NCBI RefSeq assembly: GCF_011684115.1
Contig: NZ_JAADJV010000005.1
Coordinates: 124,001 to 188,000, forward strand
Source of the DNA: Rahnella aceris
Lineage (GTDB): Bacteria > Pseudomonadota > Gammaproteobacteria > Enterobacterales > Enterobacteriaceae
Reading direction: 5' to 3'
DNA length: 64,000 nt
The notes below the pieces were generated by a model. That model was given only the letters and a program-made list of their open reading frames with translations. It was not told the DNA's origin and ran no database searches. Made by a program: the position numbers and the translations under genes. Below are positions 2,322-13,912 of the stretch, piece by piece. Each line of letters opens with the position of its first letter. Positions within the stretch are counted from its first letter, which is position 1.

Positions 2322-3557
2322 GTGGAGATTTACCTGGTCGGCGGCGCAGTCCGAGACAGTTTATTAAACCTGCCTGTGTCTGAACACGATTGGGTGGTAG
2401 TGGGCGCGACGCCTGAATATATGCTCGAAAATGGCTATCAGCAGGTCGGTAAAGATTTTCCGGTCTTCCTGCATCCGGTCACTCACGATGAATATGCGCT
2501 GGCCCGTACTGAGCGGAAATCTGGCTCCGGTTATAACGGCTTTACCTGTTATGCCGCACCGGATGTCACGCTGGAACAAGATCTGATGCGTCGGGATCTG
2601 ACCATTAATGCCATCGCCAAAAGCAACGATGGCGAACTTTTCGATCCCTATCACGGTCAGCGTGATATCGAACAACGCCTTTTGCGCCACGTTTCCGATG
2701 CTTTCGGCGAAGATCCGCTGCGGGTTCTGCGCGTTGCCCGCTTTGCTGCACGCTTCGCGCATTTAGATTTCACGGTCGCCCCGGAAACGCAGGCGCTGAT
2801 GCAACAGATGGCGGAAAGCGGTGAGCTGGAAGCCCTCACACCTGAACGTGTGTGGAAAGAAACTGAGAAAGCGTTACAAACGCAGGATCCGCAGGTCTAT
2901 TTCCAGGTGCTGCGCGATTGTGGCGCCCTGAAAGTGCTGTTTCCTGAAATCGATGCATTATTTGGCGTGCCTGCACCGGCGAAATGGCATCCGGAAATTG
3001 ATACCGGCATACATACGCTGATGACGCTGAAAATCGCCAGCACCCTGACGCCTGACGTCGATGTGCGTTTTTCGGCGCTTTGCCATGATTTGGGTAAGGC
3101 TCTGACGCCGCCGCAATTCTGGCCTGCCCATCACGGTCATGGCCCGGCGGGCGTGAAACTGGTGGAGGAACTCTGCCAGCGGCTGAAAGTGCCGACGCAC
3201 ATTCGTGATTTAGCGAAACTGGTCGCGGAGTTCCATGACCTGATCCACACCGTCAATAAACTGCGTCCGGAAACCTTGTTAAAACTGTTCGACACCATTG
3301 ATGTCTGGCGTAAACCGCAGCGTCTTGAGCAGATGATCATGACCAGTGAAGCCGATGCGCGCGGGCGTACGACATTTGAAAATAATCCCTATCCGCAAGG
3401 CGATTACCTGCGTGAAGCCTTTGCAGTCGCCAGCAGCGTTTCAAATAAAGAGGTGCTGGATGCGGGTTTCCAGGGTATGGCTATCCGTGATGAACTGAAG
3501 AAACGCCGTACTCAGGCGCTCGCCGACTGGAAACAAACTCAGGACGTGGCGATTTAA
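2322..3557 (+). CDS. cca: Multifunctional CCA-adding tRNA nucleotidyltransferase
   Basis: 411 residues, against 412 in E. coli. I chose the GTG at 2322, because CAGGAG lies 8 bases upstream (2309-2314) and the protein then starts [12 protein letters not shown] like the family; an earlier in-frame ATG at 2298 adds eight unrelated residues. Class II nucleotidyltransferase fold: GGAVRD at 7-12, then E21-x-D23 where E. coli has D21-x-D23 (conservative). A C-terminal HD phosphohydrolase domain is present (CHDLGK). The enzyme builds and repairs the 3' CCA of tRNAs and has 2',3'-cyclic phosphodiesterase and phosphatase activity. Confidence 0.96.
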
Positions 3558-3576
3558 ACGCTGGCTTTATTCATAA

Positions 3577-3616
3577 GAAAAGCCCCGCCGGTGATTCACC
3601 GTGCGGGGCTTTTTAT
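3577..3616. terminator. Bidirectional terminator between cca and uppP
   Basis: AAAAGCCCCGC and GCGGGGCTTTTT flank a short loop between two convergent genes. There are A's on one side and T's on the other, so it can stop transcription from both. Confidence 0.9.
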
Positions 3617-3635
3617 TGCCTCAGGGAAGCAAAAA

Positions 3636-4463
3636 TCAGGCGATAAACACAAAATACACGGCAATTGCCACGAAGAAACGGTAAATCGCAAACGGGATAA
3701 ACGAAATACGTTTAATCACCGCCAGGAAGGTTTTAATTGCGATCAACGCAACAATGAACGCAGAGACAAACCCTGTGGCAAACATCGGTAAATCCGCCAT
3801 ATTCAGGAAGCTGTAGCTCTTGTACAAATCCAGAGCCGTCGCGCCCATCATCATCGGCACCGCCAGCAGGAAAGAGAACTCAGATGCCGCAAAACGGCTG
3901 ATCCCCATTAACATCCCCCCACTGATGGTTGCCCCTGAGCGGGAGAACCCGGGCCAGAGCGCCAGACACTGAAAAACACCAATCATAAACGCCTGCACGT
4001 AGGTGATGTCATCCAGTCCCTCGGCACGCGGTTTTTTAGGTTTCAGCAACTCGGCAGCAATCAGCAAAATACCGCCGACCACCAGTGCATACATGACATA
4101 TTTTGGCTCGAACAACGCTTTGATTTGAGAGTGCAGAAGCAGCCCCAGTACCGTTGCCGGAATCATCCCCAAAATAATATGCAATAAATTTAAACGACGA
4201 GAACCCGAGCCTTCATGAACCGGCGGTTTACCAAAATGCAAACCTATCATGTTGAACAAACGACGCCAGAACATCACGACCACGGCCAGAATTGAACCTA
4301 ACTGGATAACCACTTCAAATGATTTTGAGGTATCTCCCGTAAAGCCAAGAAGATTGCCGACAATAATCAAATGACCGGTAGAAGAAACAGGCAAAAACTC
4401 GGTGAGTCCTTCAACCACCCCCAAAATAGCCGCAACAAGCAAAGAATGACTTTCGACGATCAT
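3636..4463 (-). CDS. uppP: Undecaprenyl-diphosphatase (bacitracin resistance protein BacA)
   Basis: 275 residues, an integral inner-membrane protein with about eight hydrophobic segments. Both family signatures are visible: [14 protein letters not shown] near residue 18-31, and [14 protein letters not shown] in the middle. It dephosphorylates undecaprenyl diphosphate to recycle the lipid carrier for peptidoglycan and other wall polymers. It is transcribed away from folB, with a folB terminator between the two, so it probably has its own promoter. Confidence 0.97.
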
Positions 4464-9555: not shown

Positions 9556-11394
9556 ATGGAGCAAAACCCGCAGTCACAGCTTAAGCTACTTGTCACCCGT
9601 GGTAAGGAGCAAGGCTATCTGACCTATGCTGAGGTCAATGACCATCTGCCGGAAGATATCGTCGATTCCGACCAGATCGAAGACATCATCCAGATGATTA
9701 ACGACATGGGCATCCAGGTACTTGAAGAAGCACCGGACGCCGATGATTTGATGCTGGCCGAAAACCGCCCTGATACCGACGAAGACGCTGCAGAAGCGGC
9801 GGCGCAGGTACTTTCCAGCGTTGAATCCGAAATTGGCCGTACCACCGACCCTGTGCGTATGTATATGCGCGAGATGGGTACCGTTGAGTTGCTGACCCGT
9901 GAAGGCGAAATCGACATCGCCAAACGTATCGAAGACGGTATCAACCAGGTTCAGTGCTCCGTTGCTGAATATCCTGAAGCTATCACTTATTTGTTAGAGC
10001 AATATGACCGTGTAGAAGCTGGCGAAGTCCGCCTGTCTGACTTGATCACAGGTTTTGTTGACCCTAACGCCGAAGAAGAAATCGCACCAACTGCGACTCA
10101 CGTGGGTTCTGAACTGACCACCGAAGAGCAGGATGATGATGATGAAGACGAAGATGAAGACGACGATGCTGAAGACGACAACAGCATCGACCCGGAACTG
10201 GCTCGCCAGAAGTTCACCGAACTGCGTGAACAGCATGAAGCGACGCGTCTGGTCATCAAGAAAAACGGCCGTAGCCACAAGAGCGCAGCAGAAGAAATCC
10301 TGAAGCTGTCCGATGTGTTCAAACAATTCCGTTTAGTGCCAAAACAGTTCGATTTCCTGGTTAACAGCATGCGTTCCATGATGGATCGCGTTCGTGCTCA
10401 GGAACGTCTGATCATGAAAGTGTGCGTTGAACAGTGCAAAATGCCGAAGAAAAACTTCGTCAATCTGTTCGCCGGTAACGAAACCAGCGATACCTGGTTT
10501 GATGCTGCTCTGGCAATGGGTAAACCCTGGTCTGAGAAGCTGAAAGAAGTCACCGAAGACGTACAGCGCGGCCTGATGAAGCTGCGTCAGATCGAAGAAG
10601 AAACTGGCCTGACTATCGAACAGGTAAAAGACATCAACCGTCGCATGTCTATCGGCGAAGCGAAAGCCCGTCGCGCGAAGAAAGAGATGGTTGAAGCAAA
10701 CTTACGTCTGGTTATTTCGATCGCGAAGAAATACACCAACCGTGGTCTGCAGTTCCTTGACCTGATCCAGGAAGGTAACATCGGCCTGATGAAAGCCGTT
10801 GATAAGTTTGAATATCGCCGTGGTTATAAGTTCTCAACTTATGCGACCTGGTGGATCCGTCAGGCTATCACCCGCTCCATCGCCGACCAGGCGCGTACCA
10901 TCCGTATCCCGGTACATATGATTGAGACGATCAACAAACTCAACCGTATCTCCCGTCAGATGCTGCAAGAGATGGGCCGCGAGCCGACGCCGGAAGAACT
11001 GGCTGAACGTATGCTGATGCCGGAAGACAAAATCCGCAAAGTGCTGAAAATTGCGAAAGAACCAATCTCCATGGAAACGCCAATCGGCGACGATGAAGAT
11101 TCGCATCTGGGTGATTTCATCGAGGATACCACCCTCGAGCTGCCACTGGATTCTGCAACGTCTGAAAGCCTGCGTTCTGCAACACATGACGTTCTGGCTG
11201 GCCTGACCGCACGTGAAGCTAAAGTTCTGCGTATGCGTTTCGGTATCGATATGAACACTGACCACACGCTGGAAGAAGTGGGCAAACAGTTCGACGTTAC
11301 CCGTGAACGTATCCGTCAGATCGAAGCGAAAGCGTTGCGTAAACTGCGCCACCCAAGCCGCTCCGAAGTGCTGCGCAGCTTCCTGGACGATTAA
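9556..11394 (+). CDS. rpoD: RNA polymerase primary sigma factor sigma-70
   Basis: 612 residues (E. coli 613). Region 1.1 is at the N-terminus ([20 protein letters not shown]). Next comes the long non-conserved insert with a run of Asp/Glu (10130-10185), then region 2 ([20 protein letters not shown]), region 3, and region 4 with the helix-turn-helix [22 protein letters not shown]. It is the housekeeping sigma factor. A strong terminator follows at 11423-11457. Confidence 0.99.
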
Positions 11395-11422: not shown

Positions 11423-11457
11423 AAAAGCCCCGGCAGAAATGCCGGGGCTTTTTATTA
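11423..11457. terminator. Terminator after rpoD, shared with the convergent accessory gene
   Basis: AAAAGCCCCGGC, loop AGAAAT, GCCGGGGCTTTTT. It is flanked by A's and T's and reaches the stop codon of the convergent gene at 11455, so it serves both sides. Confidence 0.92.
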
Positions 11458-11922
11458 CTGGTTTTCTAAACTGACATTCACCCAGGCAGTATTATCCGGT
11501 AATGGAATAAGCCCGCTGCTGACACCCGTCAAACCAAATACTTTCGAGGCCGGCGAATCAGCATGCAATTCCAGATAAAACGTCTGAGCAAAACTGAGTA
11601 AAACTTCCGTACTGTCTGCTGACTCGCAGGCATCAATATAAACGTTACCCGTATAACCCGGTGGGAAAATACTTTTCACGTTTAAATAAAGCGTATCACC
11701 ATTAACATAAAAGGCCTGGGCTTTATCACCGATGACCGGCCGGTCATTATCCCCCTGAAAAGCACCGTGGGAGATAATAAACAGATTTTCATTCTGTTCC
11801 AGTAACCGCAACTCAGAATGAAATATTTTGTAACTCGACTTAAAGACTGACTGGTACTGCGCCATTGAAGCACTGGCAACATGTTCCAGTTCCGGATCAT
11901 CGGTACAGACGATAAGAATCAT
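11455..11922 (-). CDS. Small putative caspase-like (clan CD-type) protein, function unknown
   Basis: 155 residues, ATG at 11922 with GGAG seven bases upstream. I do not recognise a named family. Visible features are a hydrophobic beta strand ending in His52-Gly53 (LFIISHG) and a second strand ending in Asp97-Ala98-Cys99-Glu100-Ser101 (VYIDACES). That His-Gly and Asp-x-Cys pair is the spacing and context of the catalytic dyad in caspase-fold (clan CD) peptidases, though this protein is shorter than a usual p20 domain. There is no signal peptide or membrane span. It is the last gene of a three-gene operon, 33 bases after a RhiA-like gene. Peptidase activity is an inference; a non-catalytic caspase-like fold or an unrelated Rossmann-like protein is possible. 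Confidence 0.55.
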   Translation of the reverse strand: MILIVCTDDPELEHVASASMAQYQSVFKSSYKIFHSELRLLEQNENLFIISHGAFQGDNDRPVIGDKAQAFYVNGDTLYLNVKSIFPPGYTGNVYIDACESADSTEVLLSFAQTFYLELHADSPASKVFGLTGVSSGLIPLPDNTAWVNVSLENQ

Positions 11923-11955
11923 AATATTACTCCGTAAGTAAATTAAACTGATGAC

Positions 11956-12558
11956 TCAGCCAACAGACCAGGTGTTATCATTTTTCAGCTGAACATTCAG
12001 GTTGTAAGTATTCGGCGCAAACTCAAGCTGCTGCTTATTGGTAATCTGACCAATATCAAGCACCTGACCCGGCGTATAATTACCAAAAGTGATCCAATAA
12101 GTTGGATGCGGCGTGAAGGTCAGGTTGATGTTCGGCTGTGCCTGAACAACAAAGGTACCCGCCCCCGACATACCGACCCCGACAGAGGCCTGATTCAGCG
12201 GTAAACTGCTGTCGTTCGTGACATACAACGTACCGTTCTTTCCGCCGGTGGTCTGTTGTTCGAATTCAAACGCCCCCTCGGAATAGCTCAGCGTCACCTG
12301 ATTATTGTTCGTCAGGCTGGCAGGAAGGGTTTGAGAGGCATCGAATTTCACACCGGGGATCAGCACACCGGTTTCATCCCAAACAAAACTGTAATCAATT
12401 CCCCAGTCAAACTGCACTTTGGTTTTTGGATGTGCCACTTTGGAGAACCACGCCAGTGACATCACTTTGGGATCGGTGATATCCGGAGAGGTTTGATAAA
12501 TACAAATTGCGCCGGTATTTACAGAGTTGTTTGCTACAGTGACAGAATATTGAGTCAT
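11956..12558 (-). CDS. RhiA-like beta-rich protein
   Basis: 200 residues, ATG at 12558 with AAGG upstream. There is no signal peptide and only one cysteine; it is rich in Thr, Asn and Val and predicted by eye to be all-beta. The opening QYSVTVANNS and the block FTPHPTYWITFGNYTPGQV resemble, from memory, the RhiA family first described as a quorum-controlled rhizosphere protein of Rhizobium leguminosarum; its biochemical role is unknown. It is the middle gene of the operon, 80 bases after the possible regulator and 33 bases before the caspase-like gene. The family assignment is tentative; the reading frame is firm. Confidence 0.6.
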   Translation of the reverse strand: MTQYSVTVANNSVNTGAICIYQTSPDITDPKVMSLAWFSKVAHPKTKVQFDWGIDYSFVWDETGVLIPGVKFDASQTLPASLTNNNQVTLSYSEGAFEFEQQTTGGKNGTLYVTNDSSLPLNQASVGVGMSGAGTFVVQAQPNINLTFTPHPTYWITFGNYTPGQVLDIGQITNKQQLEFAPNTYNLNVQLKNDNTWSVG

Positions 12559-12638
12559 AATATTTACCTTTTATATTAAAATGAATGAGAAAATAATTGT
12601 GTGTAGTCTTTGCCTTCTCTTAACTTCCTCGACCTCCT

Positions 12639-13130
12639 TTACAGACACGCGTTACGTGATTTAATTAGCCGGATACTTCGCATCGTAATACCAAAAGTTT
12701 GTGTGAGTAGTTTTGCCGGAATATCTTCTTTCATCGCCACTTGCATTGCTGCCCGGCGAATAGCGATAAACACCCCCCAGTTGGATGGCGTATCCAGATA
12801 TCCAGAAGAATCAATTTTTTTATAAATTCTGTTATATTTATTTTGCGGGATATTAATCCCGTAGATCTGATAAAACTTCTCTGCCTCTTTGGGCATGTAT
12901 ATTTTTCTCCCTCCATGGAGATGAATAAAATGAAATAATCCGGCGAAACCACCATGTTCAGCAAATTCCGATGCTATCCAGGGCATCACCGACATGATGC
13001 AGACGCTGTTTTTTTCACAAAAGCTGATTAATCTTGCTTCTCTTTCTGAATGCCGGAGCGGTAGTCCTGAAAATAGTTCGAACCATTCCTCCAGATTTTC
13101 CTGTCTTTCTTCGGTTTCAACATTAGCCAT
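12639..13130 (-). CDS. Hypothetical protein, possible Mor-like DNA-binding regulator
   Basis: 163 residues from the ATG at 13130, which has AGGAG eight bases upstream; a GTG at 13178 would add 16 residues. I do not recognise it with confidence. Residues 73-81 (GGRKIYMPK) recall the GGxxIYIPK strand of Mor/C-type phage activators. The end, about 138-158 (PAKLLTQTFGITMRSIRLIKS), looks like the helix-turn-helix that follows it there, but a longer insert separates the two. The coding sequence is visibly AT-richer than its neighbours, which suggests transfer. It is the first gene of the three-gene unit between rpoD and mug. Confidence 0.5.
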   Translation of the reverse strand: MANVETEERQENLEEWFELFSGLPLRHSEREARLISFCEKNSVCIMSVMPWIASEFAEHGGFAGLFHFIHLHGGRKIYMPKEAEKFYQIYGINIPQNKYNRIYKKIDSSGYLDTPSNWGVFIAIRRAAMQVAMKEDIPAKLLTQTFGITMRSIRLIKSRNACL

Positions 13131-13408
13131 ATCTCCTGCTCCTGAAGAATCAAACTGCCTGACTACTTTGCTGCTCACCCCGAATGAGGCGATGGAATAA
13201 GTTTTAGTTCAGTTGAGCGCATTCACACGGGGGAAGCATTCCTCTTACATTAAATATGCAAATGTATTCAGGTGGGGTTCAGAGAGTATAAAGCTGCTTT
13301 AATAGCGAAATAATTTGGTAAATCAACCAAAACCAAGACGATTATTAATAAAATAATCATCATGGCGAGATTTTATATCTGAGGGAATAATAAGAGGAGG
13401 TGACGGGA
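13131..13408. other. AT-rich intergenic region upstream of the accessory operon
   Basis: 278 bases, clearly richer in A+T than the surrounding core genes. It must hold the minus-strand promoter of the accessory operon. I cannot name a convincing -35/-10 pair, and I see no tRNA, integrase remnant or direct repeat that would mark an attachment site. Confidence 0.45.
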
Positions 13409-13912
13409 TTATGCTGTGTTTTCTAATGATAAGAATAGTTCACGGTATGCGGATACCAGTTCATCCAGCGTCGCCCGGTTCAGGCCGCTTGGGTTAGGCA
13501 GCACCCAAACTTCCGTGTCACCGATTTTCAACGCCTGACGTCCCCAGTTCACCTTACTGATGCCAAACGCTTTACTGAATGCCTGTTTGCCTAAAACAGC
13601 CAGCGCACGCGGCTGATAGTATTCAATTTTTGCCATCAACGCTGCGCCCCCTTCGCGCAACTCATCGCGAACCAGCTCCGTTGCCTCAACGGTCGGACGT
13701 TCCACCAGCATGGTGATCCCGCAATCTGTATCCAGCAAATGCTGTTCTTCTTCAGGCTTAAGTAAACGCCCGGTAAAACCCGCCTGATAGATAACCTTCC
13801 AGAAGCGGTTATTGGCATTAGCGAAATGGAAACCATGATGAGCAGTGGATAAGCCGGGATTGATGCCGCAAAACACGACAGAAAGATCCCGGGCGATAAT
13901 ATCTGTAATCAT
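13409..13912 (-). CDS. mug: G/U mismatch-specific uracil-DNA glycosylase
   Basis: 167 residues (E. coli 168). The active-site motif GINPG is at residues 16-20 with its catalytic Asn, and the C-terminal NPSGLN inserts into the DNA minor groove. It removes uracil and 3,N4-ethenocytosine opposite G. In E. coli mug directly follows rpoD; here the accessory operon lies between them. Confidence 0.95.

Follow-up and report, generated by a model that had tools for sequence, protein, structure and literature searches.

In Rhizobium leguminosarum, RhiA is reported to be a strongly expressed protein of the cytoplasm whose function is unknown, with a negative result for the culture supernatant that is given there as data not shown (PMC2275737). 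It is also reported to be among the most abundant rhizosphere proteins of this species, and a table in PMC7900000 lists it as extracellular. In the rhiABC operon, rhiA adjoins the genes for RhiB, which has a collar domain, RhiC and a LuxR-type protein (RhiR), and there is no peptidase match among them. The window analysed here is a stretch of 64,000 nucleotides from Rahnella aceris (contig NZ_JAADJV010000005.1, positions 124,001 to 188,000), and in it a homologue of RhiA stands in another setting, with a gene for a Mor-like regulator on one side and a gene for a small predicted cysteine peptidase on the other, so that a neighbourhood of the rhiABC type is lacking. The three genes are as follows:

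11455..11922, minus strand: gene for a small cysteine peptidase, predicted clan CD (C80-like), 155 residues
11956..12558, minus strand: rhiA homologue, 200 residues, all-beta in the model and with no signal peptide visible by eye
12639..13130, minus strand: gene for a Mor/C-family transcription activator, 163 residues from the ATG at 13130

The families or clans of these components are already known. The combination of the three genes, a D-A-C peptidase lacking the flap of its toxin relatives, and control of the Mor type were not found described in one open-access library. The operon is read here as an accessory, self-switched protease-effector module in which RhiA is the co-produced partner of the peptidase, with a probability of about 0.38. 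The initial annotation had proposed three same-strand genes with gaps of 33 and 80 bases, which the coordinates of the open reading frames bear out (80 bases between regulator and rhiA, 33 between rhiA and peptidase); it did not include the Mor-type operator, the constant position in enterics or the replacement of the peptidase allele.

The pairing of RhiA with the peptidase recurs outside this locus. About 24 loci were read overall, 16 of them peptidase loci (the window, L001-L011, L021-L023 and L027, with the remnant L012 excluded; L001 is the same genome as G012 and L002, by coordinates, the same contig stretch as G288, each counted once). RhiA adjoins the peptidase in ten of the 16, eight enteric and two actinobacterial, and the gene orders of the latter are opposite, RhiA being upstream in Kutzneria and downstream in Catenulispora. 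Linkage of the RhiA and peptidase genes beyond the enteric site, on which the initial annotation had made its proposal depend, is thus present. Among 295 Enterobacterales genomes, including that of the window, the peptidase occurs in two, both times beside RhiA, and RhiA in five, one marginal at an expectation value (E) of 6.7e-4. RhiA was found in seven of 398 genomes of the window's phylum, four of them weak matches (E 1.1e-7 to 6.7e-4), and in the phylum of Kutzneria, with the Kutzneria genome itself counted, one of 296 genomes has the peptidase and two have RhiA. The window's own genome has a single match to each. Consecutive locus tags in Serratia fonticola (FHU10_2692 to 2694) are a likely further case, judged from names alone.

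The middle gene is RhiA by sequence homology: the window protein is 39.8% identical to RhiA of R. johnstonii 3841 with 99% covered (tblastn, NC_008381.1, E 3e-32), and the tentative placement made earlier holds. In all, 238 homologues were found, and 120 listed ones carry the precomputed label PF27136; the Pfam scan gave no PF27136 match. A model from a 36-row alignment is all-beta with a predicted local distance difference test score of 90, and it has no clear structural relatives.

The first gene is, by its family matches, an activator of the Mor/C type. Its protein has a match to phrog_836 (late transcriptional activator, E 1e-4). Pfam Mor finds 12 of the 15 family members when E values up to 1 are admitted, the best being 5.3e-5, and has no match in the window's own regulator protein. 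The tentative name given initially holds. Met1 is common to 15 of 15 rows of the family alignment, with a GTG at 13178 as a possible alternative start. Two predicted elements lie upstream:

13225..13243, minus strand: predicted Mor-type operator, a GGAA-N3-TTCC dyad followed by CCCGTGT
13201..13206, minus strand: predicted -10 element TAAAAC, 31 bases from the dyad centre

The dyad, followed by N-CCGTGT, precedes the regulator gene in all eight enteric operons. Allowing up to one mismatch, the 5.23-Mb genome has a single copy of the extended pattern, with 0.01 occurrences expected in the window. TAAAAC or TAATAC is present 31-32 bases from the dyad in 8/8 operons, a hexamer that was picked after the dyad was seen. 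If it is the -10 element, the dyad centre would fall at -43 or -44, and in phage Mu the Mor dimer is reported to bind inverted repeats centred at -43.5 and to replace the -35 element (PMC4390567). From the conserved dyad, its extended pattern unique in the genome, and its putative Mor-like position, a dedicated, self-activating switch is predicted. The family matches link the gene to the activators of Mu-like phages, whose operator position it would share if the -10 element is placed correctly, whereas here the gene belongs to a chromosomal three-gene operon with no phage structural genes in the interval between rpoD and mug.

The third gene had been named caspase-like from two motifs, ISHG and DACES. 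Both are present, and the following positions are prominent in its product:

11767..11769, minus strand: codon of the predicted catalytic His52, in model strand 47-56
11626..11628, minus strand: codon of the predicted catalytic Cys99, within D97-A-C99 in model strand 94-101
11896..11901, minus strand: codons of Asp8-Asp9, invariant, just before model helix 10-22

All 32 alignment rows (the window and 31 of 32 homologues, the short P0007 excluded) keep His52 and Cys99, and so do all 43 when 11 loci are added. In these 43 rows Asp8 and Asp9 are likewise constant and D97 is found in 37. Structure prediction gives a clan-CD, caspase-like fold, but the nearest listed folds are C80 domains and not caspases, which refines the earlier name. 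The model has the overall core of the toxin cysteine-protease domain (CPD, family C80), with the His-Cys dyad on core strands 3 and 4 of the clan-CD sheet; DSSP places H52 and C99 inside the strands and not at their very end. Unlike the toxin CPDs, the peptidase stands alone at 155 residues, and the beta-flap of the inositol hexakisphosphate (InsP6) cleft, between strands 5 and 6, is absent from the model, where 15 residues with no predicted strand lie between 128-131 and 147-150. A conserved Lys/Arg pocket is also lacking, as at most 25 of 43 rows are basic in any column and isoelectric points are 4.1-6.0, and the cysteine is preceded by D-A. Metacaspases (C14B) share the D-A-C and an Asp near helix 1 but are much longer, and the model has three helices of at least four residues in place of the five of the caspase/metacaspase C14 fold. 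D8/D9 and D97 occupy sequence positions similar to the acids of the metacaspase S1 pocket, for which Asp95 and Asp211 are proposed in TbMCA2. Asp8-Asp9 are candidates for His-orienting or S1-pocket acids.

The operon lies between the convergent genes rpoD (9556-11394, plus strand) and mug (13409-13912, minus strand), and all eight enteric loci have the three genes in this position and in unchanged order. The ratio of nonsynonymous to synonymous substitutions (dN/dS) is 0.02-0.12 for all three genes wherever computable, with synonymous sites near saturation in most pairs, and the genes therefore appear to be under constraint. This conserved order together with the low dN/dS makes the arrangement more than chance. 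Among 14 Rahnella genomes the rpoD-mug gap contains the intact operon in two, is empty (88-96 bp) in ten, and holds a remnant in one and a transposase-like pair in one. The remnant, in R. perminowiae, is 1021 bp with the ends of regulator and peptidase genes fused; its dyad is retained and its -10 hexamer not matched. An old locus, frequently lost and exchanged by way of its flanks, would account for the fixed place and the patchy presence.

The comparison of the window with R. victoriana shows a difference between the genes. Synonymous divergence (dS) is 0.34-0.35 for RhiA and Mor, 2.07 for the peptidase and 1.18 for mug, the latter values near saturation and rough; RhiA is 95.5% identical between the two species and the peptidase 72%. 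Identity drops near 11870, just inside the peptidase gene, so that the peptidase gene looks replaced and the regulator and RhiA genes do not.

In the favoured reading, the Mor-type activator would bind the dyad at about -43/-44, replace the -35 element and activate its own operon. Soluble RhiA and the small peptidase would then be made together, as their common direction and tight spacing suggest. The peptidase would, from its predicted fold, be a minimal His-Cys enzyme of clan CD with a C80-like core, and in the absence of an InsP6 flap its activation would need another trigger, the simplest being RhiA or a component of the target cell. Activity, specificity, interaction and delivery are inferred throughout. 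In the last step the peptidase would be an effector that cleaves a target protein in a host cell or in an adjacent one, and RhiA a co-produced carrier, activator or stabiliser rather than a specific inhibitor. Exchange of the peptidase gene between strains, with the regulator and RhiA staying, is what a variable effector on a constant chassis would be expected to show. CPD-like proteins have been reported or proposed as injected effectors (VPA1380, Tce1, Tce2 and OspB), and the sheath gene of the type VI secretion system (T6SS) was present in 9/9 proteobacterial peptidase hosts, 7/7 of the enteric ones, compared with 37 of 99 genomes of the order, the hosts being related and the search leaving out the genomes of L002 and four rhizobial loci. 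The available sources do not describe a Mor-RhiA operon for Tce1/Tce2 (H3-T6SS of Pseudomonas aeruginosa) or for VPA1380 and OspB (type III), and VPA1380 is reported to need IP6-pocket residues that have no conserved counterpart here. A more specific proposal, which is rather doubtful, starts from a new family of clan-CD peptidases, with a CPD core, a metacaspase-like D-A-C and predicted Arg/Lys cleavage, for which RhiA would serve as dedicated activator, carrier or substrate. The enteric operon would then encode a protease weapon or a factor for host association, controlled by a phage-type switch and with its enzyme gene swapped on a constant regulator-RhiA chassis.

Several observations weigh against the favoured reading. 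Six of the 16 peptidase loci lack RhiA next to the peptidase (Colwellia, Rheinheimera and four rhizobial plasmids, the latter being four of 22 matching records), and the peptidase profile finds nothing in seven RhiA loci (L015, L017, L018, L020 and L024-L026), of which L015, L017 and L018 span only about 1.5 kb on each side of RhiA. No secretion signal was identified and no signal peptide was seen by eye, RhiA is reported as cytoplasmic and undetected in the supernatant of R. leguminosarum, the T6SS sheath gene is missing from both actinobacterial hosts (0/2), and the enteric excess is uncorrected for relatedness. The Pfam scan of 32 peptidase rows gave no peptidase family, only CHAT in one at E 0.11, and Foldseek alone gave no match at E <= 0.001. 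In one of the eight enteric operons, that of Enterobacter cloacae (L007:6803-7323), the regulator gene appears broken, split over two frames by decay or sequencing error. The allele replacement may also be ordinary recombination at the locus, because mug is likewise divergent between the two Rahnella species.

The cytoplasmic location and abundance of RhiA, the lack of a visible signal peptide and the adjoining genes in enterics and two actinobacteria would also fit a module for regulated proteolysis or cell suicide, much as the initial annotation had proposed. Here the peptidase would remain inside the cell that makes it, either kept inactive by RhiA or activating RhiA by cleavage, until the phage-type regulator or a stress signal releases it. 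Many clan-CD peptidases act in cell death or in processing. On balance this is unlikely, as RhiA shows much stronger conservation than the adjacent peptidase, each occurs at loci lacking the other, and there is no match in the PADLOC models. The 95.5% and 72% identities and the six loci with no RhiA speak against any tightly co-evolving pair, be it enzyme and substrate or toxin and immunity protein. Immunity proteins usually co-diverge with their toxins, and the constancy of RhiA beside a replaced peptidase argues against such a role for it. An antibacterial pair, with a peptidase that harms competitors and RhiA as immunity protein, is for these reasons, and because RhiA also occurs without the peptidase, very improbable, even though the genes are adjacent, the sheath gene occurs in all nine proteobacterial hosts searched, and PA0256, a T6SS cargo with a DUF4347 domain, is toxic in Escherichia coli according to one report.

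The scattered loci could instead mean that RhiA and the peptidase are co-regulated host-association factors that act separately and do not interact. RhiA is reported as rhizosphere-expressed and precedes a collar-domain protein, with no peptidase, in R. johnstonii and L018, and in Sinorhizobium meliloti the peptidase occurs with no RhiA near an Evf-family gene. Against this stands the adjacency in two actinobacteria, in opposite orders and in a phylum where RhiA is found in 2/296 genomes and the peptidase in 1/296, which leaves separate action clearly unlikely. A recurrent peptidase neighbour turns the function of RhiA into a direct biochemical question and suggests a molecular partner that can be tested. 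As a relative of the toxin CPDs that lacks the flap, the peptidase would help in asking how the InsP6 switch arose, and the operon would be an example of a phage-type activator serving as the dedicated switch of a bacterial accessory module.

The neighbourhoods of the other homologues are varied. On the S. meliloti plasmid an AraC-type gene, a Pfam Evf gene (E 1.5e-22) and a 190-residue gene precede the peptidase homologue, and a similar row lies near nodD2 on a plasmid of S. mexicanum. The rows in L023:1181-4443 and L022:2512-5797 consist of AraC-type, Evf-family (tested in L023), 190-residue, peptidase and small genes; the 190-residue gene is labelled glutamate acetyltransferase, and in both peptidase homologues Tyr replaces the Asp before Ala-Cys. 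Work on Erwinia carotovora in Drosophila reportedly treats Evf as a virulence factor (PMC7315124). In Rheinheimera (L008:8506-10779) an opposed Mor-family gene and two DUF2589 genes follow the peptidase. In L017:1519-3005 RhiA is followed by a 119-residue protein with no Pfam match and an opposed Mor-family gene, and RhiA may thus pair with other second genes.

Within Rahnella, a deletion in R. perminowiae (L012:4439-5183) joins the regulator start to the peptidase end, recorded as a 211-residue fusion (P0155). The pair in the rpoD-mug gap of Rahnella G009 (L067, 567-2023, reverse complement with rpoD on plus) looks by eye like an insertion-sequence transposase pair. In Rahnella G001 (L062, same orientation) two tandem divergent RhiA-like genes (2234-2863 and 3042-3746; E 2.3e-26 and 9.4e-16) lie on the other side of mug, the rpoD-mug gap being empty. 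The identity of mug to that of the window is either about 71-77% or 88-94% in the other 13 genomes, and these two classes suggest recombination at the locus.

No match to the operon was found at the DNA level among 20,395 E. coli records. The G+C content of the rpoD-mug interval is 0.431, with 0.39-0.50 in windows over the operon, 0.49-0.53 in rpoD, 0.45-0.48 in mug and more than 0.54 beyond it. The operon had been called AT-richer than both sides, which is clear towards rpoD and only slight towards mug. One further element lies at its end:

11423..11452, strand not assigned: perfect 13-bp stem (I2), ending two bases before the last stop codon of the operon

The stem is absent from the list of the terminator scan; it is probably a terminator common to rpoD on the plus strand and the operon on the minus strand.
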